Below are positions 15,465-30,949 of a stretch of 46,122 nt of DNA, one piece after another. The stretch lies in the NCBI GenBank assembly GCA_024278775.1, contig JAJRSP010000003.1, positions 1-46,122 on the forward strand, in the 5' to 3' direction. A model generated the notes under the pieces. That model made no database searches. It was not told the DNA's origin and was given only the letters and a program-made list of their open reading frames with translations. The DNA comes from Planctomycetota bacterium (GTDB lineage Bacteria > Planctomycetota > Phycisphaerae > UBA1845). Within the stretch, counting starts at the first letter, position 1. Every line of letters begins with the position of its first letter. The position numbers and the translations under genes were made by a program.

Positions 15465-15493
15465 TTGATTGTCTCCTACGAATGTAGTAGGTT
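15465..15493 (+). promoter_or_regulatory. Sigma70-type promoter of the blaI-M56 operon
   Basis: TTGATT (15465-15470) and TAGGTT (15488-15493) with a 17-base spacer. The first BlaI-like operator lies inside the spacer and the second covers the start region, the expected layout for repression by the adjacent regulator. Confidence 0.5.
15474..15489. promoter_or_regulatory. BlaI-like operator 1
   Basis: TCCTACG-AA-TGTAGTA reads against the BlaI/MecI-type palindrome TACTACA-NN-TGTAGTA with a perfect right arm and 5 of 7 matches on the left. It sits inside the promoter spacer of the blaI-type gene. The consensus used is from knowledge of the family; binding is inferred. Confidence 0.65.
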
Positions 15494-15496
15494 ATC

Positions 15497-15512
15497 TCCG
15501 ACAAGTGTAGTA
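15497..15512. promoter_or_regulatory. BlaI-like operator 2
   Basis: TCCGACA-AG-TGTAGTA has the same right arm and again 5 of 7 matches on the left. It starts 23 bases after operator 1, about two helical turns, so two repressor dimers could bind one face of the DNA and cover the transcription start. Confidence 0.65.
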
Positions 15513-15541
15513 GGCAGACGAACCGGTGGGATGAACCATCC

Positions 15542-15928
15542 ATGGCGATGCGGCGGCAATATGATCTCGGCTCTTCCGAACTAGAGGTGTTGAAGGTGCT
15601 TTGGGACGAGGCACCCTGCACGGTTCGCGAGGTATTGAACCATATGCATGCCCGCGGGCGGCGTGTGGCCTATACCACCGTGCAGACACTGCTCACCCGG
15701 CTGGAGCAGAAACGTTTTGTTCGCAGCAACAAGACGGGGCTGGCCCACGTCTTCCGTCCGAAGGTGTCGCGTGAGCGCGTGACGAAATCCCGGCTGAAAA
15801 CACTGGTGGATCAGCTTTACGATGGGGCGGCCGGCCCGCTCGTGCTCCAGCTCGTGCGGACCGAACACTTGAAACCCGACGAGCTTGAGAAACTACAAGA
15901 GATGATCGAATCCCTGGACGACGAGTAA
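15542..15928 (+). CDS. BlaI/MecI/CopY-family transcriptional repressor
   Basis: A 128-aa winged-helix repressor. The N-terminal DNA-binding domain shows 'LGSSELEVLKVLWDEAPCTVREVLNHM' and the recognition region 'RRVAYTTVQTLLTRLEQKRF', highly typical of BlaI/MecI. The C-terminal helices serve dimerisation. In the classic system the repressor is cut after its partner M56 protease senses a beta-lactam. The partner gene follows after 29 bases. ATG 15542 or 15548 are both possible. Two matching operators upstream point to autoregulation. Confidence 0.92.
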   Translation: MAMRRQYDLGSSELEVLKVLWDEAPCTVREVLNHMHARGRRVAYTTVQTLLTRLEQKRFVRSNKTGLAHVFRPKVSRERVTKSRLKTLVDQLYDGAAGPLVLQLVRTEHLKPDELEKLQEMIESLDDE

Positions 15929-15957: not shown

Positions 15958-18900
15958 ATGACCGAGATCATCACGCCCGTGACTGACCTGCTCTGGCGAA
16001 ACGGCTTGGCTGTGCTGCCGCTCGTGCTGCTGGTGGCGGTCGTGACGCGGTTTGTGCCGTGCCGACCATCGACGAAGCACCTGTTGTGGGTCATGGTGCT
16101 GGTGTGGCTGGTGATTCCGCCGCTTGTGCCGGGTGTTGATTTGGATACCCGGTTTGCCGGAGCGGTCGCCGTCGATGTGGGGATGCCTGATGTCTCTGCC
16201 GCACCGAAGTCGCCGGACGATGCCGTGCTGATTCTCGCTGATCGTGTGGCGGCTTTGTCGGATGACCTGCAAGCCGCGACCTTAGATTCAGTTGATCCCG
16301 TTGATTCCGCTTTTGTGGCTGATACCCACGAGGACTTCCCCCCGCCCTTAGCCCGTTCCGTGGAGCGGACGCCCAACACGCTCGCCCGGGCGTTCGTCCC
16401 GGACGGGCGTTGGCCAAGCGTTTCCCTTTCGATGTCCGTCGCGGACTCCGACGAGATCGCCGCGTCGCCGGCCGCATCGAATGTGGCTGAGGCAGGCGGA
16501 TCGGAGCAGGGTGTTACCCGGCCGGTGGTGGTCGAACGAGATACACCCAAGAGAGTTGTGGCCGATACCCCTGTCCGGAAACCGGCCGGGTGGCGAGCGT
16601 GGTTGGCGTCGATTGTGGCAGTGCGTGATGCGGTGGGGCGGATCCCCGCGATTCCATCGAGTCTCTGGATCGGAGGCGTCGCGGCGCTGGGGTTGATCTG
16701 TGTCATCCGACTGGTGGCGTTGGCCGTCCGGATGCGCGCGGCTTCGCCGGCTGATCGGTCGGTGCGGCGCCTCGTACTGCGAGCGGCCAAGCGGATGCGG
16801 CTCCGTCGCGTGCCGGTCGTGTTGATGGTGGAAGACCGGGTGTCTCCGATGGTGTCGGGCGGGTGTTGGCCGCGGTTGATCTTGCCGCGCCGGCTCTGGG
16901 CCGAGCTTGACGACGCCGGTCGTGAGGCTGTCGTGTGTCACGAGCTGGCACACCTGCGCCGGTGCGATCACCTGGTGGTGTGGGCCGATACGTTCGTCGG
17001 TCTGCTGTACTGGTGGCATCCGATCGTCTGGTGGGTGCGCAGCCGGCTTCATGCGGAAGCAGAGAATTGTTGTGACGCCTGGGTGACGACGCTGAGACCG
17101 ACGGAGCGGCGCATCTATGCGCAGACACTGTTGCGGACGAGAGAATACTTGAGCGGTGAGCCGCGGGTGTGGCCCGCGATGACCGTAGGAATGACGTCTG
17201 GGCGAGCCAAACGTTTTGCGAGGAGACTGACCATGGTAATGACGAACAGGGTAAAGCCGGGGCTATCGGCACCGGGTGTGGTGTTGGCACTGGCGGTGGC
17301 GGTGATGGGGTGGCTGGCGTCGCCGGCACAATCATGCCCCAACGAGAAGAGCCCGCGCGGGCTGATCGAAAGTCAGACCACCAGTGATGTTCATCTGGCC
17401 GTCGACGAACCCAGAGGTGATGGCGTGGTAGAGGTTCGCCTGGTTGGTGATCGCGGTGACGATAACGGCGAGATCGAGGAGCGGATGGAGCGACTGGAAA
17501 GGCAGCTCGAACATCTGATGCGTGCGTTGGAGAGAAATGGAGGCCCCGGAGATCGGAGACCGCGCGAGCATCGCAGGCACGATCGCCGCGAAAGACGTGA
17601 CCGCGCCGAGCGCGAACACGGCGACCACCGGTGCGGTGAGTGTGGGCATGGCGGACCCGACCACCACGGTGATCACGAACGCGGCGAGCGTAGGCATGGT
17701 CAGCGCGGGCGTGGTGACGATCATGGGCACCCCGGTCTCCGCGGACGGATGGGCCCACACGTTTTTGCAGATCCGCCAAGACCCGATGCGCCGTGGCCGC
17801 CACGCGCCCCCAGAGCTCCTCGCGCACCGAGAGCGCCTTGGCCCGGCGCGGATCACATGTCATGGCGAACGTATGAGCTGCCCGGTGGGAAGCTTGAGGC
17901 CTTCACTTCGCTGATGGCACTCGATGACGTGCCGATTCTGGTACGTCCGGGGAAGGACTCGATCGAAATACAGGCCACCGACCATCAACATGATTTATTC
18001 GAAGCCTTTTTGCGGATGATCGATGGCAGAGAGACGCACGCGCGTTTCATGCCGGGGCCGCCGATCGGACCGAGAGGCGGATGGGGGCACGCCGAGGGTG
18101 GCTGGGCTCCAGGTCCGAAAGGGCGACACGCCGACGCGGCGCGTAGGTGCCACGAAAAACGCGGATGTAAGAACGGCAAAGACGGGTGTCAACACGGTGC
18201 CGCCGGGGGGGGGACATGTGCGGATTGTAAGAAGCATCGGAAGTCCGCCGCGGTGCGTCGCACGATCACGAAGGCGCAACAGTTGGTGCGTCGAGAGCTT
18301 GCCAAGGTGCAGGCTGAACTGGGAGGTGAAGTGGCGGAGCTTCGTGAAAAAGCTCGTGTGGGTGTCCAACGGGCCCGGAGGCAGATTCGTAAGCAAATCC
18401 GCGATATCCGTAAGAAGGCGGAATCCCAAGAGGCCATGCTGGAGTCGCTACGCGAACAGGTGGACACCCTGCGGGACGAGGCCGAGTCCTACCGTGATCG
18501 AGCGGCTGAGATCCGCAATCGTGCCGAGGCGTGGCGTGACCGGATGACGGAAGAGCTGGGTGACGCCGAGGCGCGCGCGACTCTTGAGACGCACGTTCTC
18601 GGGCTCATCAAGGGGGCGGCCGACTTGGAAGGCAAGGCCGTTTCTATGGAAGACCTCGCCCGGGTTTTCGAAGAGAAGTCCCACGCCGTGGAGGATCAGC
18701 TTCGTTCGTTCGAAGTCTATCTCGTCGGGAGAGCCGACGCAGAGCCGACAACTCCAGAGGGTCGGACTGTTGAAATCACAACCGTGGCACCGAACGTTCC
18801 CGCGGAAGAGGCCGAAGTTTCGGTAGTCATCGAAGCGGGACCGCAGACGGTTGAATCCGAAAACTCACAAGTCGCGGTTGATGTCGCCAAGGCATTGAAG

Positions 18901-18972
18901 GCCTCGTTGGCGGTTGTGGAAAGCGAAACCGACGAAACGGCCCATGTCGCCGAAAGGCACGATCGCGATTGA
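15958..18972 (+). CDS. BlaR1/MecR1-type M56 membrane metallopeptidase with unusual C-terminal domain
   Basis: A 1004-aa membrane protein. N-terminal transmembrane segments (from ~14 and ~42) and the M56 zinc protease core with HELAH at residues 328-332 and 'AENCCDAWV' match BlaR1. A further membrane segment lies near 440-458. The exported C-terminal ~540 residues are not a penicillin-binding domain. They contain a His/Arg/Asp/Gly-rich stretch (~520-605), a run of Pro-Arg-Ala repeats (~615-630), a Cys/His-rich patch with CHEKRGC, CQHG and CADC (~720-760), and a long charged coiled coil (~765-920). GGAGGG before ATG 15958 supports the start. The metal-binding look of the region suggests a metal or envelope-stress signal rather than beta-lactam (inference). 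It should inactivate the adjacent BlaI-type repressor. Confidence 0.85.
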   Translation: MTEIITPVTDLLWRNGLAVLPLVLLVAVVTRFVPCRPSTKHLLWVMVLVWLVIPPLVPGVDLDTRFAGAVAVDVGMPDVSAAPKSPDDAVLILADRVAALSDDLQAATLDSVDPVDSAFVADTHEDFPPPLARSVERTPNTLARAFVPDGRWPSVSLSMSVADSDEIAASPAASNVAEAGGSEQGVTRPVVVERDTPKRVVADTPVRKPAGWRAWLASIVAVRDAVGRIPAIPSSLWIGGVAALGLICVIRLVALAVRMRAASPADRSVRRLVLRAAKRMRLRRVPVVLMVEDRVSPMVSGGCWPRLILPRRLWAELDDAGREAVVCHELAHLRRCDHLVVWADTFVGLLYWWHPIVWWVRSRLHAEAENCCDAWVTTLRPTERRIYAQTLLRTREYLSGEPRVWPAMTVGMTSGRAKRFARRLTMVMTNRVKPGLSAPGVVLALAVAVMGWLASPAQSCPNEKSPRGLIESQTTSDVHLAVDEPRGDGVVEVRLVGDRGDDNGEIEERMERLERQLEHLMRALERNGGPGDRRPREHRRHDRRERRDRAEREHGDHRCGECGHGGPDHHGDHERGERRHGQRGRGDDHGHPGLRGRMGPHVFADPPRPDAPWPPRAPRAPRAPRAPWPGADHMSWRTYELPGGKLEAFTSLMALDDVPILVRPGKDSIEIQATDHQHDLFEAFLRMIDGRETHARFMPGPPIGPRGGWGHAEGGWAPGPKGRHADAARRCHEKRGCKNGKDGCQHGAAGGGTCADCKKHRKSAAVRRTITKAQQLVRRELAKVQAELGGEVAELREKARVGVQRARRQIRKQIRDIRKKAESQEAMLESLREQVDTLRDEAESYRDRAAEIRNRAEAWRDRMTEELGDAEARATLETHVLGLIKGAADLEGKAVSMEDLARVFEEKSHAVEDQLRSFEVYLVGRADAEPTTPEGRTVEITTVAPNVPAEEAEVSVVIEAGPQTVESENSQVAVDVAKALKASLAVVESETDETAHVAERHDRD

Positions 18973-19220: not shown

Positions 19221-22200
19221 ATGAATCGCTATGGGTTCGTTAGGTCAACAGGCGTGGTCTCTGTGTTCGTGCTTCTTGCCGCTGCTTTGCCGTCGGCGAA
19301 TGCGCGAGCGAACGGCGCTGACTCATACGATCCGGCGTTGCGCAGCTATCTTGCCGGCAACGGTTTGTTGAATCGCGGTTTGTATGACCTGGCCGCTACG
19401 GAGTATCGCCGGTTTCTCTCCGATCACAGTGACCATGATCGCGCACCGCTTGCGCAGTATGGGTTGGGCGTGTGTCTGTTCCGTACGAAGCAGTACGCCG
19501 AAGCGATCGAGCAGTTGACGCCTGTCGCAGCGGCGTCTGACTTCGAGTTTGCCGCCGAAGTCGCCACGATGCTGGGTCAGTCGCATCTAGCGTTGAAGCA
19601 GTACGAACCGGCCGCTAAGTTCTTTCAAGCGGGTGCCCGGAAACACCCCAAGCATGCCCTGGCTGATGAGGCGGCCGTGGGCGCGACGGAGTCGTTGTAC
19701 CTGTTGGGGCGCTACGGCGAGGCGGCGGGGTGGGCCACACGCTTTGGCTCGCAGTGGCCGGATAGTCCGAATCGACCGCGGGCTGAGTTTTTCGGCGGGT
19801 TGGCCGAGATGGCGCGCGAGGGTTACGAGGCGGCCAGCAAGCTGTTCGCCGGTGTGCTAGAGCTTGATCCGGATGGACCGTTCGCCGATCAATCGTGTCT
19901 GTTTCTGGCGCAATGCTACGAGCAGGGTCAATCGAGTCAGCCCGCAATACGCCAATATCAAGCGCTGCTCCAACGCAAGAAGACCAAGTACGCGCCGGAG
20001 GCATTATATGGCTTGGGTGTGCTGCACCGTCAACGAGGTGAGCGGAAAGAAGCGGCCTTGGTGCTCGATACGCTGCTCGATCGGTTTGGTCAGAGCAAGA
20101 TCGTGCCCCGCGCTGCGCTGCTTCGCGGGCGTGTGGCGTTTGAACAAGAAGCCTTCGAGGCGGCGGCCGGTTTCTTTCAGAAGGCGGGTCAGGCGGATGC
20201 CGACTTGCGCGATCGCACCGAGTACTGGCGTGCCAAGTGCGACCTTCGTCTCGAACATTTCGATAAGGCCAACGCGCGTTTAACCAAGGCGGTTGAGTCA
20301 TATCCGCAGAGCGCATTGCTGGCAGAGATGTGGTACGATCTGGCCATCGCCCGGCTTCGTATGAAGTCTTTTGACGGAGCGATCGAAGCACTCAACACGT
20401 TTCGGAAACGTTTCCCCGATCATGATCTGGCTGCGGAAGCGTTGCGGCTTCTGGCGATGACGGAACACCAGCGGCGCGGATTTGATGAGAGTCTCCGATA
20501 CGCTCGTTTGTTTCTGGCGACATACCCATCTCATGCGGACGCTGTGGATTTGATATTCCTCGTGGGAGAAAACGATTTTCTCACCGGTCGGTATGAACAA
20601 GCCGTGGATGACTACCGGCAGTATCTCTCAAAAAGTGAACAGGATGCACAGTCGGCCAAGGCGAAGCTGCGTCTCGGCCCCGCCTTGCATCGACTCGGTC
20701 GCCTTGATGAGGCCGAGCCGTATCTGGCAGAAGTGAGCGGCCACACGGATGATGCCGCCATCTTCGGGGCGTCTCACCTGGCGTTGGGAGACATTCATTT
20801 TCGGCGCGGCGAGTGGAAGCAGGCCGAGAAAGAGCTTCGTGCATTTCTCCAAGCCGGGACAGATCAACCCGGTGCCGATGATGCGCTCATCAAGCTCGGC
20901 CTGTCGCTGCAACGTCAGGAGCGACCCGAAGAGGCGGTTTCCGTGTACAACGAATTGCTCGGCTTTGACTTTTCCAGCCCCCATCGGCTGCAGGCGCTCT
21001 TCGAAAAGGGACAGTCGCTGGTGATGCTGGAACGCCGAGACGAAGCGGAGAAGGTGTTTCGGATGCTTCTGGCTGAGGATGATGAGTCGCGTTTTGCCCC
21101 GCATGCGCTGAACCATCTTGCGGCGCTGGCCATGCACCGCGGCGCGTACGACGAGGCCAACACGCTCTACGGCAAGGCCGCGGGTTCGCCGGCCGATGAT
21201 GAACTCCGGTCCGGGGCCGCCTATCAGCGCATCAAGGCGCTCATGGCCTCCAAACGGTTCGCCGAAGCCGAAACGGCCATTACGGCCTACCTGTCGAACT
21301 ATGGTGCCACGGGTGCCGCGCCGGCGGCCCGCGCGCAGTTGGCGATTGCGCTCGCTCGTCAGGACAAGTATGAGAAGGCTGTTGGGGCGGTGGATCGCGC
21401 GGTGGCTTCGGCGGCGGCGCTGGAACCGTCGTTGTTGGCTGCGGTGCAGTACGAGAAGGCGTGGTGCCTTCGCGAGTTGGGCCGAACGGATGAAGCGGCA
21501 AAGGCGTACGCCCAACTCATCGAGCAGGGAGTGACTCGCGACTATGAGTTGCACGCGCTGCTCGAGCTGGCGAGTATCGAAAGCGGGGCGAAGCGATTTA
21601 AGCAAGCCGCGGGGCTGTTGAGACGGATCAGAGAGTCTGGTGACGCCGGCGAAGTCCCTGCGGCCGTGATGGCGCAGGCGACGTACCGACTCGGGGTGTG
21701 TGAATTTGAGTTGGGTCGTTTTGCGGAGTCAGTGTCTCTGTTCGAGGCGTACCTCACCGGTGCGGGAGGAGATCAGCTTACGGCGTCGGCGGCGTTCTAC
21801 GCCGGCGAATCGGCTTTCAAGCTCGGACAGTTCGAGCGCTCGGTGAAACATCTGGCGCGTGTGATCAAGGAATTTGCGACGGACGACGTAGCAGCACCGA
21901 GCATGCTGCGGCTGGGTGAGGCGTATGCGAAGCTCCAGCAGTTCAGCCGGAGCGAGCGCGTGTTTAAAACCTACCTCGACTCACACGCGGACAGCGATCA
22001 GTGGTACCAGGCGCGATTTGGGTTGGGATGGGCGCAAGAAAACCAACAGCGCCAAGATGCGGCGATCCGCACGTACCAGCAGGTCATCGAGCGACATCAA
22101 GGGCCCACCGCCGCTCGGGCGCAGTTTCAGATTGGCGAATGTCTTTTTGCGCAACAGAAATATGCGGCCGCGGCGGCCGAGTTGCTCAAGGTGGACATTC

Positions 22201-22391
22201 TCTACGCTTATCCGCAGTGGAGTGCGGCCGCGTTGTTTGAGGCGGGGCGTTGTTTCGTCAAGCTGAACAAGGTGGCCGAGGCACGAAAGCAGTTTGAGCA
22301 AGTGGCGAAGGTCGATCAGAAGTCCCGGTGGGCGGAGATGGCACAGCAGCAGCTCGATGCGCTGGCGACGGCGTCGGTTCCGGGGTCGTAG
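19221..22391 (+). CDS. Giant exported tetratricopeptide-repeat protein
   Basis: A 1056-aa protein with a signal peptide (cleavage likely after ~ANA, residue ~28) and TPR-like helix pairs along nearly its whole length ('GLYDLAATEYRRFL', 'KQYAEAIEQL', 'GRFAESVSLFEAYL' and many more). It should be a periplasmic solenoid scaffold. ATG 19221 has a strong AAAGGAGG site 9 bases upstream, so the longer frame from 19062 is rejected. It is the first gene of a five-gene operon with ExbB/TolQ and ExbD/TolR; in Tol-Pal systems a TPR protein (CpoB/YbgF) is likewise encoded with TolQR, though it is far smaller. Confidence 0.88.
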   Translation: MNRYGFVRSTGVVSVFVLLAAALPSANARANGADSYDPALRSYLAGNGLLNRGLYDLAATEYRRFLSDHSDHDRAPLAQYGLGVCLFRTKQYAEAIEQLTPVAAASDFEFAAEVATMLGQSHLALKQYEPAAKFFQAGARKHPKHALADEAAVGATESLYLLGRYGEAAGWATRFGSQWPDSPNRPRAEFFGGLAEMAREGYEAASKLFAGVLELDPDGPFADQSCLFLAQCYEQGQSSQPAIRQYQALLQRKKTKYAPEALYGLGVLHRQRGERKEAALVLDTLLDRFGQSKIVPRAALLRGRVAFEQEAFEAAAGFFQKAGQADADLRDRTEYWRAKCDLRLEHFDKANARLTKAVESYPQSALLAEMWYDLAIARLRMKSFDGAIEALNTFRKRFPDHDLAAEALRLLAMTEHQRRGFDESLRYARLFLATYPSHADAVDLIFLVGENDFLTGRYEQAVDDYRQYLSKSEQDAQSAKAKLRLGPALHRLGRLDEAEPYLAEVSGHTDDAAIFGASHLALGDIHFRRGEWKQAEKELRAFLQAGTDQPGADDALIKLGLSLQRQERPEEAVSVYNELLGFDFSSPHRLQALFEKGQSLVMLERRDEAEKVFRMLLAEDDESRFAPHALNHLAALAMHRGAYDEANTLYGKAAGSPADDELRSGAAYQRIKALMASKRFAEAETAITAYLSNYGATGAAPAARAQLAIALARQDKYEKAVGAVDRAVASAAALEPSLLAAVQYEKAWCLRELGRTDEAAKAYAQLIEQGVTRDYELHALLELASIESGAKRFKQAAGLLRRIRESGDAGEVPAAVMAQATYRLGVCEFELGRFAESVSLFEAYLTGAGGDQLTASAAFYAGESAFKLGQFERSVKHLARVIKEFATDDVAAPSMLRLGEAYAKLQQFSRSERVFKTYLDSHADSDQWYQARFGLGWAQENQQRQDAAIRTYQQVIERHQGPTAARAQFQIGECLFAQQKYAAAAAELLKVDILYAYPQWSAAALFEAGRCFVKLNKVAEARKQFEQVAKVDQKSRWAEMAQQQLDALATASVPGS

Positions 22392-22430
22392 CGTGTGGGC
22401 ACGGGTCAACACAGATAGGAGTATGGGGCG

Positions 22431-23231
22431 ATGAGAGTTATCTTGGTGGTGGCGGTGCTTGGGTTCGCGCGGGCTGCGCTGGGGCAGGGCGCGTCGGTCA
22501 ACGTGACGGACGCGGCCGTGCAAGTGGGTTCCGTCTGGGATCTCGCCATCAAAGGCGGTCCGGTTATGATTCCCATCGGTCTTTGTTCGTTGGTGGCGTT
22601 GACCATCGTGATCGAGCGGTGGGTCAGCCTTCGTCGCAAGCGAGTGATCCCGCCTTTGTTTTTGGCTCAACTCAATGAACACCTGGAAGAAGGAGACGGT
22701 GATTATAGCAAGGCGCTTTCGTACTGTGATACCGACGGCAGCCCGATCGCGACGGTGTTTGCGGCCGGACTCAAGCGAATGGGCCAGCCGATCGACGTGA
22801 TCGAAAAATACATTGTCCAGGCGGGAGAGGGCGTGGTGTTTACACTGCGAAAGAACCTGCGTGCGCTGGCGGTGATTGCCTCTATTGCGCCGTTGCTCGG
22901 TTTGCTCGGGACGATTTTCGGCATGATTGCCGCTTTTCAGACGGTGGCGACTTCCGGCGAGGCGTTGGGGAAGACGGAAGTTCTCGCCAAGGGCATTTAT
23001 CAGGCGATGATTACCACGGCGGCCGGTCTCATGTTGGCGATCCCCGTCTTGATCGCGTACCACTTCTTCACCACGAAAATAGAACGTCTGGTCCATGACC
23101 TTGATGCAAAAACGGTAGCGTTTGTGGAAACGTACGGGGGGCGTGTCGGAGAAAGGGCGTTGCATGCGCCGAAGTTGCAGGCGGTGAGTGAAACGTCTTC
23201 GAACCCGGCAGCGGCCGCCGTGAGCGCGTAA
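22431..23231 (+). CDS. MotA/TolQ/ExbB proton-channel family protein
   Basis: A 266-aa inner-membrane protein that with its ExbD/TolR partner forms the proton-driven motor of Tol, Ton-like or Agl-type systems. It has an N-terminal signal-like segment, a first membrane helix (~'MIPIGLCSLVALTIVIERWV'), a cytoplasmic loop, and the conserved two-helix region 'IASIAPLLGLLGTIFGMIAAF' and 'AMITTAAGLMLAIPVLIAYHF'. An AGGAG site precedes ATG 22431 by 9 bases. It follows the TPR gene by 39 bases and precedes the ExbD gene by 12. Confidence 0.93.
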   Translation: MRVILVVAVLGFARAALGQGASVNVTDAAVQVGSVWDLAIKGGPVMIPIGLCSLVALTIVIERWVSLRRKRVIPPLFLAQLNEHLEEGDGDYSKALSYCDTDGSPIATVFAAGLKRMGQPIDVIEKYIVQAGEGVVFTLRKNLRALAVIASIAPLLGLLGTIFGMIAAFQTVATSGEALGKTEVLAKGIYQAMITTAAGLMLAIPVLIAYHFFTTKIERLVHDLDAKTVAFVETYGGRVGERALHAPKLQAVSETSSNPAAAAVSA

Positions 23232-23243
23232 GGAGCCGTAACC

Positions 23244-23660
23244 ATGCTCATCAAAGCGAAGCCGCAAGAGGCTGACGGCTTGTCGATCGAAATGACGCCG
23301 ATGATCGACATGGTGTTTTTGGTGCTGATTTTCTTTCTGGTGGCTACGACGTTTCACCAGACCGAGCGGGAAATGAGAATCGCGCTTCCGTTTGCGGCGT
23401 CCGCCGCGCCCATCAGCTCGATGTTGCAAGAGATGGTCGTCAACGTCGACGAGAACGGTTCGATTTTGCTTGGCGGGCGTCGTGTCACGGCCGCCGCCCT
23501 GGAGCAGCGGGTGGTCCAGGCCGTGGCTGCGAATCCGGAACAGAAGGTGACCGTGCGTGGTGATCGTGTAACGGCCTATGCCAACATCGTCACGGTGCTC
23601 GATATTTGTAAACGTGCCGGGGTTCAGGAGCCGTTTTTGGATACGGTCATAGGGGATTAG
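23244..23660 (+). CDS. ExbD/TolR-family biopolymer transport protein
   Basis: A 138-aa protein with one N-terminal membrane helix and a periplasmic domain. The proton-carrying Asp is D22 in 'MTPMIDMVFLVLIFFLV', the family signature. The periplasmic part includes 'VNVDENGSILLGGRRV', normal for ExbD/TolR. Pairs with the upstream ExbB/TolQ protein to convert proton motive force into movement of envelope partners. Only 3 bases separate it from the next gene. Confidence 0.93.
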   Translation: MLIKAKPQEADGLSIEMTPMIDMVFLVLIFFLVATTFHQTEREMRIALPFAASAAPISSMLQEMVVNVDENGSILLGGRRVTAAALEQRVVQAVAANPEQKVTVRGDRVTAYANIVTVLDICKRAGVQEPFLDTVIGD

Positions 23661-23663
23661 CTG

Positions 23664-24860
23664 TTGAGAGGCTTCGGTCATGTCACTCGTGCGGCGCTGA
23701 TGGCTCTGGCGTGGGTTGGCGCTACGCCGTCGGCTCATGCGACCCCACCCACACCGAACCCCCATCAGACCCCCAGGCGATTTTTCCTTCCCGAAACAAC
23801 GGGTTCGTTGAAGGTGGGTGTGCGCCAACTGCTGTTCGAAGACACCTCGCGTGACGAGCCGTTTACCGTTCAAACGAGCGACCGGCGGAGATGGGTGGCT
23901 TCCATCTACTATCCCGCGCAGGTGGCACCGCGCGCAGCCCGGGCTTTGTATATGGATTCGCTCAGTGCCATCGTCTGGGCGAAGCTACGTCACCTGTGGC
24001 AGCGCTTTGAACGCAGCGTGATCACGCGCGCCTTCCGGGACGCACCGGTGCTCCCTGGAACGGAGCAGTATCCGGTCGTCATCTATTCACCGGATATCTT
24101 CTCCCTTCCCGAAAATTATCACTCGCTGGTAACTGATCTCGCCAGTCATGGCTACGTCGTAGTCGGGATCAACCACACCTACGCCTCGGCCGCCGCATCT
24201 TTTCCGAAGCAGGGTTTTGTCTCCGATCGGATCTGGGCGAACGGCTACGCCAACAAGAACACGCGGCAGCGGGCGATGACCTCTTATCTTCCGACATGGA
24301 TCGCGGATATTCGTTTTGTGGCCGACGACCTTGTGCGTCGGGACGAGGACCCGGGCTTCTTTCTTTCGGGGCGACTCGACGTCAACAAGATCGGCGTGTG
24401 GGGTCATGGCTACGGTGGCTGGGCGGCGGCGCGCGCGCTGCTTGCGGAGGATCGGTTTGTGGCCGGCGTCGCCCTGGATGGACGTGTTGAAGATCCGGCG
24501 CAGATTCCCATGCAGATGACAAAACCGTGGTTGCAAATCGTGGGCAAGGCGGAACATGAGCACGCGGGGATGCACTTTTTGGGTCGTTATGCGGATGTGG
24601 CGGAGCTTGTGGTTGAGGGGGTCAACCATGTGTCGTTTGAGGATTTGGCGTTGTTGCGTGAGCGGTTTGACCGAAGCACTGTGGCCGTTCGTAAAAAGAA
24701 GCCGGAAGTCGATCCGGCGCATTTGATCAACATCATCCGTGCCTATGTGTGGGCTTTTTTCGATCATCATTTGAAAGGGCGGGAGCCGGGGCTGATGGCT
24801 TTGGAACAGTCTCCCTATTCCGAGGCGCACCTCCGACGCGGGAACCCCGCCGCACCATGA
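23664..24860 (+). CDS. PAF-acetylhydrolase-like alpha/beta protein lacking the nucleophile Ser
   Basis: A 398-aa exported protein (signal peptide ending ~'PSAHA') with the overall plan of plasma platelet-activating-factor acetylhydrolase: 'YPVVIYSPD', 'LASHGYVVVGINH', a nucleophile elbow, 'ALDGRV' and 'GVNHVSFEDL'. The elbow, normally GHSxGG, is GHGYGG here: codon 249 is GGC (Gly) instead of Ser. The Asp and His candidates of the triad remain. It is thus likely a non-catalytic relative with a binding role, or it uses another mechanism. The start is TTG 23664, supported by AGGGG 8 bases upstream and by the signal peptide; it is tightly coupled to the ExbD gene. Confidence 0.8.
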   Translation: MRGFGHVTRAALMALAWVGATPSAHATPPTPNPHQTPRRFFLPETTGSLKVGVRQLLFEDTSRDEPFTVQTSDRRRWVASIYYPAQVAPRAARALYMDSLSAIVWAKLRHLWQRFERSVITRAFRDAPVLPGTEQYPVVIYSPDIFSLPENYHSLVTDLASHGYVVVGINHTYASAAASFPKQGFVSDRIWANGYANKNTRQRAMTSYLPTWIADIRFVADDLVRRDEDPGFFLSGRLDVNKIGVWGHGYGGWAAARALLAEDRFVAGVALDGRVEDPAQIPMQMTKPWLQIVGKAEHEHAGMHFLGRYADVAELVVEGVNHVSFEDLALLRERFDRSTVAVRKKKPEVDPAHLINIIRAYVWAFFDHHLKGREPGLMALEQSPYSEAHLRRGNPAAP

Positions 24861-24901
24861 GGCCACATGGCGTGGTCCGCCGACCATGAACACAAGGTGA
24901 C

Positions 24902-27900
24902 ATGATGAGGCGATCGTTAATCGTGGTGGGTCTGGTGCTGCTGCTGGGGATCGGCGGCACGATTGCGTGGCGTCTGTGGCCGATGCAGCGCGTGTTTTAC
25001 ACGGATGCGGATACCATCAAGGCTCCCACCCATGCGGCCGCGATTCGTCAAATTCTTTGGCAGCCGCCCCGGTACAGGCCCGACCTGACCCGCGCCTTCG
25101 CGGCGGATCACGTACCGTTTGTGACCGAAGACGGACTGACGCTGCTCTTCTCGCGCCGCGATCACGGTCATCCCGCGAATATCTACTACGCGCGCAAGTC
25201 GGCCTCCGGATGGTCCGAGCCGGTCGCGTTGACCGCCGTCAATTCGGACAGTGATGATCTTGGTCCTGTACTCTCGAACGATGGCCGCGCACTCTATTTC
25301 TATAGCGATCGTGCGGGGAGCATCGGCGGCTATGATCTCTGGGTGTCGTATCGCCATAGCGGAGAGGCGTTCGAGTTTGACGAGGCGATCAATCTCGGGG
25401 CCGCGGTCAATTCACCGTTCAATGACTACGCCCCCGCGCCCACGCCGGATGGTGACCTCTTGTACTTTTCGTCGAACCGCCCGCCGCCCGAAGACGAGCT
25501 GGGTGAACAGGCCCGGTCGGCGACGCTGCACGAAGATTCATTCGAGCGGACGTACGATCTGTATGTCTCCGCGGTGACCGGACAGCGCGTCGGGTCCGCC
25601 CGCCCGCTTCGTACGCTCAACACGCCGGCCAACGAAGGTGCCCCGGCCGTCAGTCCGGTCGGGGATTTCCTTTATTTCGCGTCGGATCGCGCAGGGGGAC
25701 GGGGTGGGTTTGATCTCTACCGATCCCGCCGTCTGGAGGGATTGCTCGAAGCCGCTCACAACCTGGGTGAGACGGTCAACTCGGCCTTCCATGATCTCGA
25801 CCCGAGCGTGGGACACGGTGGCTTCGATCTGTATTTCAGTTCCGATCGAAGTGTCGGCGATCCGATCGCGGAGAGAGATTCGCCGCGCGAATACAAACTC
25901 TATCACACGATCTCACGAGAAGTGTTTGTGGATTCCGAGGTGATCCAGAGAGCGCCGATCCGTTGGGCGGCGATTTGGTCGGCGATCTGGCCAAACCTGC
26001 TGTGGATGCTGACGGCTTTCACTCTGGCAGTTCTTCTGTTCACGCTGATGCGTCGATCCGGGGAGCGGAGGCTCAGCCTGCTCATGCGATGCCTTCTGGG
26101 TTCGGTGCTGGCGCATCTGGTGTTGGTGATGCTGCTCACGATCTGGGGGGTGACGGCCAGCATTGCCGGAGAGTATTCCCGTCGCGGTAGGATTCAGATC
26201 GCACTCGCGTCGCCGGCCACCGGCCAAGAGGTCGCCGCGCAGATTACGGGCGGTCTGACCACCTTGGAATCTCCCATGATCGCGTCACCATCGTTCGAGC
26301 GTGCCGAAACACCGAAAGAGCGTCCCGTGGAGGCGAGTGAGGCGCGACTCGAAGTGTCACATCAAGTCGTGCCCGTGGACCCATCACCAGATGTGGAAAT
26401 GACACTGGCCGACGCCGGCGCAACCTGGCAGTCAGAATCGAGAGCGTGGAGCAAGCCGAAAGCATTACGGCCGCCCTCGGCTGAGGTGTCGCTGTCGACG
26501 CCGACCGAATCGTTGCGCGTGAGCCGCCAAGAATCCACGCGGAAAGTGTCGCCGTCGGAGACCCCGGTCGAAGACGTCAAGCGTCCCGAAGTCGTGGTGA
26601 CCGCCGAGCCACAACCCACCCAATCCGTTGCGGTGGAACTAGCGCGGCTCGATCAGTTGCCTGTGATGCGCAAGGGGTTGATCGAGCGGGTTGTCGCGGG
26701 TGACGCCGTGGTGCCAAAGGCTCGTGTGGTCGATGATCTTTCCGTGCCCAGGCCGACCTCCGATCTGCCTCCCGCACCCGGCTTTCCACTCGCGACGGCC
26801 ACGGCGGAAAAACTCCCGGATGTCGCGGAGATTCGGCTTGATCCCTCGGAGCGGACGCGGACGGTGCCTCCATTGCGTATCACGTCTCATGGAGGGTCCG
26901 GGCCCATTCCGGACGAGTTTGCCAACATCCAGCCGGAGGCGACCGAATCAGCAGAGGATGTCGGGCGTTCGTTGGCCGGGTCGTCACTCGCCCAAGCGTC
27001 GGACGCGATCCCGGTTTCAGCCACGGTGACGAGACCGGAGGTCGCTGTCGACATCACACCGTCGAGCGCCGAGCCCGCCGACGTGTCCACGCCGCAGGAG
27101 TTGGTGAAGATGGCGCGGGCGACCGAGGGAGCGGTTCGAGTTGATCCGACGGTCCGGCCCGAGGTGATCCGAGCAGAAACGCTTCCCGTTCATGTCGAGC
27201 CATCCGAGATGCGTTTCGACCGGATGGATCCCGTTCGAGCCCCGTCCGTCGTGGGAGAGGCGTTGATGGTTTCGGTGCGGCGTGGGGGGGAGTTGGACAA
27301 AGACATCCCGTTTGTGCCACTCGCCAAGCCAACAGCCGCGCTTGCGGCGTCGGTGTGGCCCGAGCGGAAGGCGATTGAGCTACCTCCGGTGGAGGAGGCT
27401 CGGGAGGCCCAGACGTTCGAATCCAAAGAGCCGGTGGAGCGCGTCGCGATGGCGGATCTTCGCGCCGACGTCGATTCGTGGTTGAGTCAAGCCGTGCGTG
27501 AAGTGCACCGGCCCCATGTTGATGTTGAGCTGTCGCGCGAGGAGGTTGCCGTTGCGCCCGACACCTCCTTCTTCCCCACTCCGACGGTTCCGGATGATCT
27601 GGCTCCGGTCAAGCCGGTTTCGTATGTCGCTACGATACCGGTGGACATTCCCGATGATCAGAAACCCATGGAGCTGGACCTCGAACTGTCGCCCGAGGAA
27701 TCGCCACCGGAGAACGCTTTTTTGCAACGCAGCGCGCCGAACAAAATGGAAATCGTCGAGCGCATGGGCGGTAGTGAGGCGACGGAGGCGGCCGTTGCGC
27801 TTGCGCTGAAATGGCTTGCGCAGCACCAAGACGCAGAGGGGTTTTGGAACATTCGCGTGTTTGATGAGCGGTGCGGTGGTTGTGACCACACCCAACCGAT

Positions 27901-29458
27901 TCACGCCGACGTGGCCCTAACCGGGCTGGCGACGCTCTGCTTTCTCGGGGCCGGGCACACGCAAGATTCAGGCGGACCCTATGAAGCTACCGTCGGTCGA
28001 GCCATTGATTGGCTGCTTGCGCAGCAGGCTCCGAACGGAGATCTGCGCGGCGATGAAACGATGTACACGCAGGGCATCGCGACCATCGCACTCGCCGAGG
28101 CGTTGGCAATGACGGATGACGAACGCCTGCGCGAACCAGTCGAGTGGGCCCTTCGGTTTATCCACGCCGCGCGGAGTCGTCACGAAGGCGGATGGCAATA
28201 CGATCCGACGCAGGCGAGTGACACATCCGTGCTGGGTTGGATGATGATGGCCATGAAGAGTGCGTCGACGGCCGGTCTGCCTGTGCCGCGAGATGCATTT
28301 GACGTTGGCACTGATTGGCTCGAACGGGTGAGTGATCCCGACCAGCCGGGTCTCTATCCCTTTCGTCCGGACCAACAGGCTTCGCCCGGCATGACGGCGG
28401 AATCGATGTTCGTTCAGCAGATCCTTGGCAAGACCGCCGCTGATCCGATCATGCAGGCGTCGGCCGACTATATCTTGGAGCACCTTCCCGATTGGGACCG
28501 CAACCCCGACACCTACTTCTGGTACTACGCTTCGCTTGCGCTCTTTCAGCATCAGGGACCGGCATGGACCACGTGGAATAACGCGTTGAAACGCGAACTG
28601 GTCGCGCATCAGCGCAAAGACGATCAAGCCGCGGGCAGTTGGGATCCGCAGGGTAATCAATGGTCCGAGCTTGGTGGCCGTGTCTATCAGACCGCGCTGT
28701 GTACGTTGATGCTCGAAGTGTATTACCGATACCTGCCGATGTATTCGAACGATGACCCGACGATTCCCGATCGGCCGGATGACGCCTTCGGTACGATTGC
28801 CGGCGTGGTGCGCGATGCCGATACCGGCAAGCCGCTCGTCGGCGCGACGGTGCGTCTGGACGTGCCGGATGGGGCACCGATCTTGGCACAGACCGACCGA
28901 GATGGGTTCTACTATCTTTGGACGCCGGAGCTGCCGCCGTTTTTTGCGTTGTCGGCGGCTCAGCAAGGGTATGTGCCGGAGTCTCTGAATGTCGACTCGA
29001 CGGCGTTGCGGCAGAGTGTGCTGGATGTGGATTTTGACCTACGGTCCGACCGTGGCGTAGTGTTCTCTACGGAAGCCGTGCCCGAGGTACACCACCTCGG
29101 CGACAATCGGTTCGACGGAAAAATCAACAGCCGGTTCCAGAAGCGAACCGAAGGTGCGGAGTACGGTTCGGAGTTTGTCATTACCTCCGAGCAGCTAGCG
29201 CGGCGCTTTCGTCGGGCCGAGGTGCGGCTGATGGCCAAGGGGGTGCAGCGGGGGCATTCGCTCTTCATCAATGGCATCATGCTGGACGATAAGCTGGAAC
29301 GCGCACCGCGTGATGGTAGCTTTGGTGATTTTCGTGCGCGTTTTGATCCGAACATACTTCGCGCCGGCACGAATACGATCGACCTGATCGCCAAACCGAG
29401 CAACACCGACATCGACGACTTCGAATTTGTCAACGTACAGATTCACCTGTTCCCGTAG
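24902..29458 (+). CDS. Giant membrane fusion: PD40 propeller, TM hairpin, linker, terpenoid-cyclase-like toroid
   Basis: A 1518-aa protein. Residues 5-23 are a membrane anchor. Residues ~60-340 carry about five WD40-like PD40 motifs ('DGRALYFYSDRAGSIGGYDLWV', shortened variants follow), as in TolB. Two membrane helices follow (~358-380 and ~397-420) with a basic loop (RRSGERR) between them, so both flanking parts should face the periplasm. A Pro/Glu/Val-rich linker spans ~430-950. Residues ~956-1280 form an alpha/alpha-toroid like the squalene cyclase/prenyltransferase repeat group. A carboxypeptidase-regulatory-like beta domain (~1297-1380) and a beta-rich tail complete it. It ends the ExbBD operon, 41 bases after the hydrolase-like gene, and may be the mechanical partner of the motor (inference). 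ATG 24905 is an equally good start. Confidence 0.82.
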   Translation: MMRRSLIVVGLVLLLGIGGTIAWRLWPMQRVFYTDADTIKAPTHAAAIRQILWQPPRYRPDLTRAFAADHVPFVTEDGLTLLFSRRDHGHPANIYYARKSASGWSEPVALTAVNSDSDDLGPVLSNDGRALYFYSDRAGSIGGYDLWVSYRHSGEAFEFDEAINLGAAVNSPFNDYAPAPTPDGDLLYFSSNRPPPEDELGEQARSATLHEDSFERTYDLYVSAVTGQRVGSARPLRTLNTPANEGAPAVSPVGDFLYFASDRAGGRGGFDLYRSRRLEGLLEAAHNLGETVNSAFHDLDPSVGHGGFDLYFSSDRSVGDPIAERDSPREYKLYHTISREVFVDSEVIQRAPIRWAAIWSAIWPNLLWMLTAFTLAVLLFTLMRRSGERRLSLLMRCLLGSVLAHLVLVMLLTIWGVTASIAGEYSRRGRIQIALASPATGQEVAAQITGGLTTLESPMIASPSFERAETPKERPVEASEARLEVSHQVVPVDPSPDVEMTLADAGATWQSESRAWSKPKALRPPSAEVSLSTPTESLRVSRQESTRKVSPSETPVEDVKRPEVVVTAEPQPTQSVAVELARLDQLPVMRKGLIERVVAGDAVVPKARVVDDLSVPRPTSDLPPAPGFPLATATAEKLPDVAEIRLDPSERTRTVPPLRITSHGGSGPIPDEFANIQPEATESAEDVGRSLAGSSLAQASDAIPVSATVTRPEVAVDITPSSAEPADVSTPQELVKMARATEGAVRVDPTVRPEVIRAETLPVHVEPSEMRFDRMDPVRAPSVVGEALMVSVRRGGELDKDIPFVPLAKPTAALAASVWPERKAIELPPVEEAREAQTFESKEPVERVAMADLRADVDSWLSQAVREVHRPHVDVELSREEVAVAPDTSFFPTPTVPDDLAPVKPVSYVATIPVDIPDDQKPMELDLELSPEESPPENAFLQRSAPNKMEIVERMGGSEATEAAVALALKWLAQHQDAEGFWNIRVFDERCGGCDHTQPIHADVALTGLATLCFLGAGHTQDSGGPYEATVGRAIDWLLAQQAPNGDLRGDETMYTQGIATIALAEALAMTDDERLREPVEWALRFIHAARSRHEGGWQYDPTQASDTSVLGWMMMAMKSASTAGLPVPRDAFDVGTDWLERVSDPDQPGLYPFRPDQQASPGMTAESMFVQQILGKTAADPIMQASADYILEHLPDWDRNPDTYFWYYASLALFQHQGPAWTTWNNALKRELVAHQRKDDQAAGSWDPQGNQWSELGGRVYQTALCTLMLEVYYRYLPMYSNDDPTIPDRPDDAFGTIAGVVRDADTGKPLVGATVRLDVPDGAPILAQTDRDGFYYLWTPELPPFFALSAAQQGYVPESLNVDSTALRQSVLDVDFDLRSDRGVVFSTEAVPEVHHLGDNRFDGKINSRFQKRTEGAEYGSEFVITSEQLARRFRRAEVRLMAKGVQRGHSLFINGIMLDDKLERAPRDGSFGDFRARFDPNILRAGTNTIDLIAKPSNTDIDDFEFVNVQIHLFP

Positions 29459-29687: not shown

Positions 29688-29919
29688 ATGAAAGGGAGGC
29701 ACCCGCCGACGGTTTTGGTCACCTATGGACCGAGCGTCGGATAATCAATCCTGTTCACGCCGGGGTGCCGCATAGTTATCACACGTGAGCGAGTTTCGCG
29801 GTTTTTTCTCCTGCCGGGTTGATCGGGTTTGCCTTTGTGCGAATGATATGGTAACCGCCCGAGTCATCCACGGCTCACGGGGAAGCCAACGGAACGGGCG
29901 ATGCGTGGGAACGAGAGTG

Positions 29920-30156
29920 ATGAACCACACAGGTCAAGGATTACGTGGGTGGGCTCGGCGAATCCGTCGCGATCAACACGGTGCCGTGGCTACGGAATAC
30001 GCGGTTCTTCTGGGGTTGGTAATCGTTGTGGTCGTGGCCGCAGCCAGCGTGCTCTGTGGTCACGTCGACAAAACGACCAGCACCATATCGCGCAACATAG
30101 CCGCAGAGAGTGGAATGAGCTTTGTGTCATACTCCGACACTTCGTCGGTGAACTGA
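29920..30156 (+). CDS. Flp-family type IVb pilin
   Basis: A 78-aa prepilin-like protein. The leader 'RRIRRDQHG' is followed directly by 'AVATEYAVLLGLVIVVVVAAAS', the Flp signature with cleavage after Gly and Glu at mature position 5 next to Tyr. Such pilins build tad-type adhesive fibres. No tad/cpa assembly gene is in the window, so it stands alone. ATG 29920 is used because it gives a short leader of ordinary length; the in-frame GTG directly before it is possible. The gene converges on fabI with only 13 bases between stops. Confidence 0.8.
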   Translation: MNHTGQGLRGWARRIRRDQHGAVATEYAVLLGLVIVVVVAAASVLCGHVDKTTSTISRNIAAESGMSFVSYSDTSSVN

Positions 30157-30169
30157 CGGTTTGTCCCGC

Positions 30170-30949
30170 TTACAACCCGACGGTGTTGTATCCGGCATCT
30201 ACAAAGATGTTCTCACCGGTGACGCCACTGGACAGGTCGCTCAGGAGATAGGTGGCCGTCTTACCCACTTCGTTCGCGTCGATGTTGCGACGGAGCGGGG
30301 CTTTTTGTTCCACCCACTGAAAAATCTCGTCGATGCCGCCGACGGCCATCGCGGATAATGTCTTGACCGGTCCGGCGCTGATCGTGTTCACCCGAATGCC
30401 GTATGCACCGAGTTCGAGAGAGAGATAGCGCGTACACGCTTCGAGGGCCGCCTTGGCGACTCCCATCACGTTGTAGCCGGGGACGGCCTTGTCGCTACCG
30501 TAGTAGGTCATGGCGATGATGGAGCCGCCGCGCGGCATCAGCGATTTCGCCCGACGCGCCATCGACACCAGCGAATAGGCGGAGATGTCGAGTGCCTGCG
30601 CAAACGTCTCTCGGGGTGTCTCAGCAAACATGCCGGGCTTGAGATAGGTGCGATCCGCATAGGCCACCGAGTGAACTAAAAAATCGATCGTGTCGAACCT
30701 CTCCTTCACCGCGGCGAAGGTCTTGTCCAGATCATCATCACAGGAGACATCGCACGGCAGCATCCACGGGTCGGTCACACCCACGCCCGACAGCGCCTTG
30801 TTGACGCGACGTTCATTTTTTTCTCCCGGCAAGTAGGGAAACGCGCACGTCGCCCCTTCGTCCATCGCCACCTTACCAATGTGGCAAGCAATGCTGCGAT
30901 CATTGGCGATTCCAAACACAAGCCCCTTGCGGCCATCAAGCAGTCCCAT
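30170..30949 (-). CDS. fabI: Enoyl-[acyl-carrier-protein] reductase FabI
   Basis: NADH-dependent reductase that completes each fatty-acid elongation cycle, a cytoplasmic short-chain dehydrogenase relative. 'KGLVFGIANDRSIA' is the FabI cofactor motif. Catalytic residues fit the family spacing: Y149, Y159 and K166 in 'YYGSDKAVPGYNVMGVAK'. 259 aa is a normal length. The second of two adjacent ATGs (30949) is taken because GGGAG lies 7 bases upstream. It follows uppS on the minus strand by 136 bases and may share its transcript. Confidence 0.95.
   Translation of the reverse strand: MGLLDGRKGLVFGIANDRSIACHIGKVAMDEGATCAFPYLPGEKNERRVNKALSGVGVTDPWMLPCDVSCDDDLDKTFAAVKERFDTIDFLVHSVAYADRTYLKPGMFAETPRETFAQALDISAYSLVSMARRAKSLMPRGGSIIAMTYYGSDKAVPGYNVMGVAKAALEACTRYLSLELGAYGIRVNTISAGPVKTLSAMAVGGIDEIFQWVEQKAPLRRNIDANEVGKTATYLLSDLSSGVTGENIFVDAGYNTVGL

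Follow-up and report, generated by a model that had tools for sequence, protein, structure and literature searches.

In a 46,122-nucleotide stretch of DNA from a Planctomycetota bacterium (contig JAJRSP010000003.1, hereafter the window), we identify an operon whose full unit is blaI – M56/BlaR1-like – TPR – exbB – exbD – fusion. On account of a Ser-x3-His motif in its third transmembrane (TM) helix, the product of the last gene, referred to here as the fusion protein, is most likely a force transducer of the TonB/TolA class, with a tip made of an alpha/alpha toroid and a carboxypeptidase-regulatory-like domain (CRD) on a PorE/TolB-like five-bladed propeller. The genes are as follows.

15542 to 15928, + strand: blaI-type repressor (PF03965, Penicillinase_R/BlaI, E 5e-32)
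15958 to 18972, + strand: M56/BlaR1-like membrane metalloprotease (PF05569, 3e-30)
19221 to 22391, + strand: exported TPR solenoid of 1056 residues, with 13 TPR_16 stretches (PF13432, 8e-66)
22431 to 23231, + strand: ExbB/TolQ motor protein (MotA_ExbB, 8e-29)
23244 to 23660, + strand: ExbD/TolR motor protein (ExbD, 7e-28)
23664 to 24860, + strand: accessory pseudoenzyme resembling platelet-activating factor (PAF) acetylhydrolase II (PAF-AH_p_II, 1.5e-17)
24902 to 29458, + strand: fusion protein of 1518 residues, a putative force transducer whose toroid/CRD tip is borne on a propeller chassis

An earlier, sequence-only reading had described the last five genes as a five-gene operon. These + strand open reading frames (ORFs) were confirmed, separated by short gaps, and the domains assigned to all five are upheld by Pfam matches, but the unit starts about 3.7 kb earlier, with the blaI and M56 genes that this reading had missed. 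In the fusion protein, Pfam finds PD40 (4e-26), a sub-cut-off match to CarboxypepD_reg (4e-6) and a weak one to SQHop_cyclase_C (0.001). Together with AlphaFold2 models and hydropathy this gives the following architecture.

24902 to 24979, + strand: TM1, the N-terminal anchor, from hydropathy; its positive N terminus would lie inside
25049 to 25936, + strand: PD40 propeller, presumably periplasmic (Pfam, AlphaFold2 model, Foldseek); five blades read from the model strands
25979 to 26056, + strand: TM2 of the hairpin, followed by the presumably cytoplasmic RRSGERR loop
26075 to 26176, + strand: TM3, candidate TonB/TolA-like motor-binding helix, with Ser401 (26102-26104) and His405 (26114-26116)
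26186 to 26215, + strand: conserved segment GRIQIALASP, candidate D-box-like ExbD-binding strand, from conservation and by analogy to the accessible text of PMC10907165
26222 to 27691, + strand: unconserved Val/Pro/Ala/Glu-rich linker of about 490 residues
27710 to 28756, + strand: alpha/alpha toroid (squalene-cyclase-like fold, no DxDDTA)
28793 to 29029, + strand: CRD (Pfam, AlphaFold2)
29054 to 29455, + strand: C-terminal beta domain (AlphaFold2; conserved within the CTER profile)

AlphaFold2 models the beta-propeller with the TM hairpin at a predicted local distance difference test (pLDDT) score of 77.7, and the toroid with the beta domains at 84.9. Pfam and these models agree with the original description of a propeller, a TM hairpin, a long linker and a cyclase-like toroid; the hairpin, TM2–TM3, is present in addition to the N-terminal TM1, and TM3 is the helix that resembles that of TonB. 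The positive charges of MMRR and RRSGERR would fit a cytoplasmic N terminus, an external propeller, an internal hairpin loop and an external linker. Sequence conservation falls in the linker and rises again at the tip.

The evidence for a motor-binding helix is a short motif. TonB and TolA share Ser-x3-His-x6-Leu-x3-Ser (SHLS), whose residues contact ExbB/TolQ according to the accessible part of PMC12215075, and the corresponding part of PMC12204202 uses the same motif to recognise vWA transducers. Ser401 and His405 of the fusion protein (Ser400 and His404 in A1 numbering) are invariant in the 32-row A1 and 34-row A4 alignments, and Leu412 of the SHLS motif is in place. Across related loci, the last TM segment ahead of the toroid contains Ser-x3-His in 73 of 80 toroid ORFs and [STGAC]-x3-His in 78; 15 of 95 ORFs had been left out, 11 with a start beyond the locus edge and four with no predicted TM segment that are apparently pieces (L028, L013, L066, L025). 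Controls gave 69 of 1744 TM segments of other ORFs, spurious ones included, and 4 of 125 for the other TM segments of the same toroid proteins. The loci had been chosen by toroid or propeller patterns or by rank against the A1 profile, for the most part on its toroid portion, and not by Ser-x3-His; since the proteins are related, the counts are not independent. The two exceptions to [STGAC]-x3-His are L002, for which a hydrophobic stretch of the linker was scored, and L119 (6822-8945), the only clear natural exception of the 80, where Asn occupies the His position (SALVN).

An ExbBD-type motor, as the first reading had proposed, is supported. Asp22 of ExbD is conserved in at least 95% of 60 sequences, as are Ser53, Thr161, Thr196 and Pro205 of ExbB in at least 95% of 59; residues of ExbD and of the C-terminal part of ExbB were equated with those of E. 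coli by alignment to chains of known structure, Ser53 by its position only. The Ser-x3-His helix likewise bears out the proposed TolA/TonB-like anchor with a long linker. In TonB, the D-box strand is the attachment point for ExbD (PMC10907165, accessible text), and by analogy the GRIQIALASP stretch after TM3 may be a D-box-like ExbD-binding strand. The predicted coupling of the fusion protein to the motor is well supported at the sequence level, and genetic linkage to exbB and exbD, as expected of a force transducer, was found with the genes in order at 50 of 52 loci.

These loci come from a scan of GTDB genome contigs, which yielded 71 from the best 80 of 116 confirmed stretches, or 72 with the window. 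Gene order was assessed at the 52 that extend 4.6 kb upstream of the fusion gene, and a script recovered TPR-ExbB-ExbD-fusion on a single strand in all except L042 and L063, which hold all four genes too: in L063 the start of the fusion ORF was over-extended across ExbD, and L042 (5441-23015) contains two complete tandem TPR-ExbB-ExbD-fusion sets, whose fusion ORFs are 1629 and 1242 residues long. Scattering of the genes in relatives, which would have spoken against the sequence-only reading, was not seen. Among the 20 shorter loci, six hold all upstream genes (L002, L013, L029, L040, L055, L059), L066 has ExbD, and 13 have none, being cut off or starting inside or just before the fusion gene. 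The fusion protein has 421 homologues at E ≤ 0.001 among 7994 scored candidates, and those named by organism among the matches listed belong to Phycisphaerae, Phycisphaerales or Planctomycetota/Planctomycetes. Such conservation, with 421 homologues and a common gene order in distant genomes, is far beyond chance. Apart from blaI/M56 and overlapping ORFs, no neighbouring gene repeats in more than seven loci; at L001 (1674-5168) and L005 (1289-4849) an exported-looking protein of 1164-1186 residues is encoded between the M56 and TPR genes, and L130 (10765-12135) holds only the start of this gene.

As in BlaI/BlaR1 pairs, a PF03965 repressor gene stands next to that of an M56 protease. Relatives of blaI were found in 39 loci and of the M56 gene in 48, window included; among loci with 3.3 kb of DNA ahead of a TPR ORF longer than 800 residues, the latter is present in 41 of 42, L010 being the exception. 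No penicillin-binding or transpeptidase domain appears among the Pfam matches of the M56 proteins of the window and L114. Two operator-like sites precede blaI in the window.

15473 to 15490, + strand: BlaI-operator-like dyad 1 (CTCCTACGAATGTAGTAG), upstream of blaI
15496 to 15513, + strand: BlaI-operator-like dyad 2 (CTCCGACAAGTGTAGTAG), 23 bp downstream of dyad 1

Between 200 nt upstream of and 60 nt inside blaI, GTAGTAG occurs in 33 of 38 loci (one of the 39 blaI loci had too little upstream DNA), compared with a shuffle mean of 0.38 and 43 of 4320 random 260-base windows; the M56–TPR gap has it in 0 of 48. The 49 sites, which include two overlapping pairs, form the dyad consensus CTMCGACN3TGTAGTAGR, and in 14 of the 33 loci two such sites stand in tandem at a spacing of 19-25 bp. 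In seven whole genomes, CTMCGACN4GTAGTAG has four exact matches, in three genomes; the reversed control pattern has three matches as well, and all four operator matches directly precede a blaI–M56 pair of this operon's kind. In G414 such an operator-preceded pair runs straight into the operon. In G040 the first part of the TPR gene comes after the pair, with the rest far away beside exbB-exbD-fusion, and in G005 the pair leads into the start of the gene that L001 and L005 have between M56 and TPR, exbB-exbD-fusion again being far away. Because the pieces fetched from G005 and G040, both single-contig chromosomes of metagenome-assembled genomes, contain N runs, with 200-300 N in each piece (L130-L133), we read this split as a scaffolding error.

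The tip is variable. Among 66 proteins with the chassis of propeller and TM segments, 23 carry both the toroid and the CTER part, 29 the toroid only and 14 CTER only; the chassis is retained while tips change. The linker has a median length of 459.5 residues in 52 chassis proteins. Of 392 Planctomycetota genomes, 347 have a match to profile A1; most of the matches listed take in the toroid only. Any A1 match is found in 69 of 120 genomes of the class, near-full-length propeller and TM matches in at least 18, and at least four more have the two halves apart. In 37 further regions, fetched from the top of the matches listed rather than at random, TPR-ExbB-ExbD stands beside the transducer in 17, three of which (L105-L107) combine the propeller chassis with a CRD/beta tip and no toroid. 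Twelve regions show ExbD directly upstream of a TM-plus-toroid protein of about 750 residues with no adjacent ExbB, and eight have neither arrangement; in L092 and L098 an ExbB-ExbD-ExbD set lies some kb from the ~750-residue toroid gene. This shorter type has 2324 homologues among 7998 scored candidates, some of which, in Gimesia, are named prenyltransferase/squalene oxidase repeat-containing protein. The motor-binding helix with a toroid recurs in other Planctomycetota. Seven Ser-x3-His toroid proteins (L094, L095, L099, L102, L111, L115, L117) have no recognised ExbB or ExbD in the fetched region; these are possibly orphan transducers that borrow a motor. Additional motor genes exist in some genomes: there are three of MotA/ExbB type in G005 and likewise three in G009. 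In a separate set of G005 (L120:4913-7876) a Ser-x3-His protein with a weak vWA match lies near an ExbB, and one of G009 (L121:5841-8831) has the order TPR-ExbB-ExbD-ExbD.

We consider it probable that the operon encodes a BlaI/M56-controlled, proton-driven force-transduction machine with the fusion protein as its transducer. From the genes, their order, the helix motif, the predicted folds and the operator-like sites, we infer the following topology, pulling action, adaptor role and sensing. ExbB and ExbD would form the motor, and the fusion protein would be anchored in the inner membrane via TM1 and the TM2–TM3 hairpin. TM3 would dock on ExbB through Ser401 and His405, as in TonB and TolA, helped by the conserved strand after TM3, which probably binds ExbD. 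The propeller would sit in the periplasm near the inner membrane, with the ~490-residue linker carrying toroid, CRD and beta domain outward to grip a partner in the outer envelope. Driven by proton flow, the motor would pull on this partner and either keep the inner and outer layers coupled or move an outer component, with the TPR solenoid most likely acting as a periplasmic or outer adaptor. The M56 protein may sense the state of the envelope and relieve BlaI repression at the tandem dyads, thereby turning the operon on.

Several observations weigh against this model. The full SHLS motif is absent, since the last Ser position is Gly416, although Ton systems conserve the Leu-Ser half less well (PMC12215075). 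Unlike TonB, the fusion protein has extra membrane helices. In E. coli, TonB/TolA is contacted by an ExbB Trp, four residues after the position of Ser53; here this Trp is not conserved and, judged by position in TM1, is replaced by Leu in 73% of the ExbB proteins. Conserved polar and aromatic residues of the toroid (E1066, W1113, R1260, R1276) would also fit an enzyme. As to control, the switch is not universal: GTAGTAG is missing in 5 of 38 loci, and G009, the genome of L010, has neither an exact operator match nor a blaI or M56 relative in the ~14 kb upstream of its TPR gene (L135).

The sequence-only reading saw in the operon a rebuilt Tol system, with the TPR protein as CpoB and the fusion protein as TolA plus TolB; on this view it would constrict the outer membrane in place of Tol-Pal. 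Its TolA-like helix is there, and Foldseek ranks TolB highest for the propeller (E 1.4e-11); however, the PorE and CHU_0125 models score higher than the TolB model, the propeller has five blades as opposed to six in TolB, and there is no TolB_N. As that reading had stated, the operon lacks Pal and TolA: Pfam finds neither TolB_N nor Pal nor a C-terminal domain of TolA/TonB in it, no TonB/TolA family among the fusion protein's matches at E ≤ 0.1, and no OmpA domain in operon genes or scanned window neighbours. The TPR protein matches TIGR02795 (286 bits, cut-off 90.1), but the CpoB equivalog NF008068 only weakly (70 bits, cut-off 383). TolB_N passes the cut-off in 2 of 47 carrier genomes (4 of 47 at E ≤ 0.001) and TonB_C occurs in 6 of 47, including G002, the genome of the closest relative, while OmpA-type proteins, possible partners, are found in 48 of 48, about three each. 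Across the phylum TolB_N is just as rare (4 of 119 over cut-off, 5 of 119 at E ≤ 0.001); its absence therefore does not track the fusion gene and gives no signal of replacement. Some TolB may be missed, as the three of 14 named genomes that match as positive controls (E. coli, Caulobacter, Bacteroides) are not planctomycetes. A full separate Tol-Pal operon in carriers, which would also have told against that reading, was not seen, with TolB_N over cut-off in just 2 of 47, with TolB_N, TonB_C and OmpA sought singly and with ~1.5 kb viewed around the TolB_N matches. The label of a rebuilt Tol is not supported, and as a functional proposal we regard it as unlikely; the planctomycete system is not Tol-Pal by its components and probably works like Tol or Ton.

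Other readings assign the tip a different task. With ExbBD, a TonB-like helix and a long Val/Pro-rich linker, the tip might open an outer-membrane receptor for the import of large substrates, but it has no TonB_C match, and none of the genes downstream is found in more than seven loci (receptors were not sought by name). We regard import as improbable. A toroid acting as an enzyme of hopanoid/terpenoid or glycan metabolism, on a membrane protein served by the motor genes, appears scarcely better. Class II terpene cyclases are defined by a DxDD(T) catalytic acid motif; DxDDTA and GCGEQ are each found in 0 of 90 toroids, with DxDD anywhere in eight and a looser DxDDT-like form in two, and the tip is absent or exchanged on the common chassis (CTER only in 14 of 66). 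As glycosidases and epimerases with a toroid fold also rank high among the matches, the fold is uninformative on an enzymatic role. A secretion- or motility-linked machine of the PorE/type IX secretion system kind seems more remote still: the propeller matches the PorE (6.7e-30) and CHU_0125 (1.4e-31) models in two stretches each, and PorE likewise joins TPR, a five-bladed propeller and a CRD (PMC5053529, accessible text), but the scores lie far under the cut-offs (104 of 600 and 110 of 620 bits) and the fusion protein has no OmpA domain (PF00691).

The PAF-hydrolase-like gene, which the sequence-only reading had counted as part of the operon's core, occurs in only 2 of 72 loci, the window and L002, and is therefore accessory. 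That the protein lacks its nucleophile Ser was confirmed by alignment: GxSxG, the nucleophile motif of PAF acetylhydrolase II, is kept in 14 of 16 aligned rows and reads GHGYGG in the window. The Ser-to-Gly change is common to the window, P0122 and L002 proteins, and the L002 copy additionally lacks the His. Beyond the fusion gene, a small ORF at 29901-30251 (+ strand) has no Pfam match at 0.001; we take its product to resemble a Flp-type pilin.

The organisation of the planctomycete cell has been a matter of long debate. TonB and TolA are known to transmit force across the envelope, and the same has been proposed for vWA proteins; our data add a transducer class that has an alpha/alpha-toroid tip and recurs in a phylum where TolB_N was seldom detected (4 of 119). 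Only tentatively do we suggest that Planctomycetota couple their membranes by toroid-tipped, ExbBD-driven transducers rather than Tol-Pal, with very long linkers suited to a variable periplasm, and that Phycisphaerae add the propeller and a BlaI/M56 switch responding to envelope damage. Such a role may be missed because some of these proteins are named for prenyltransferase/squalene oxidase repeats. Both halves of the model lend themselves to direct tests, one through the invariant His and the other through the operator dyads, and the relatives named for Gimesia point to candidate cultured hosts.

Among known systems, Tol-Pal (TolQRAB-Pal-CpoB) shares the motor, a TolA-like helix, a propeller and a TPR protein, but the operon described here lacks TolB_N, Pal and the TolA C-terminal domain and includes BlaI/M56 genes. 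With BlaI-BlaR1 and MecI-MecR1 it has in common the PF03965 repressor, the PF05569 M56 protease and operator-like dyads before blaI; here, in contrast, no penicillin-binding sensor domain was found and the pair heads a motor operon instead of a beta-lactamase gene. PorE and CHU_0125 resemble the fusion protein in their TPR, five-bladed TolB-like propeller and CRD parts, whereas PorE is a lipoprotein of the outer membrane that carries an OmpA domain and for which the accessible text describes no motor helix or toroid. Among the sources searched, which leave most subscription papers aside, we found no description of a toroid-tipped or propeller-bearing ExbBD transducer or of a BlaI-linked motor operon. 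TonB and TolA share the ExbB/ExbD-type motor, the Ser-x3-His TM helix, the long linker and a globular tip; in the fusion protein, by contrast, the motor-binding helix comes after a propeller and two further TM helices, and a toroid/CRD tip takes the place of the TonB/TolA C-terminal fold. The nearest published system, as far as the accessible part of PMC12204202 goes, is that of the vWA force transducers, which include Planctomycetes and combine TPR, tolQ-like and tolR-like genes with an SHLS-helix transducer and a non-TonB tip. They differ in their vWA tip, for which the fusion protein has no Pfam match, in a domain II of ~100 residues and, in the Planctomycetes–Verrucomicrobia–Chlamydiae (PVC) group, in often paired tolR genes. 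The operon of the window is a well-conserved, apparently regulated, motor-driven transducer system and a variant of the TonB/TolA/vWA class.
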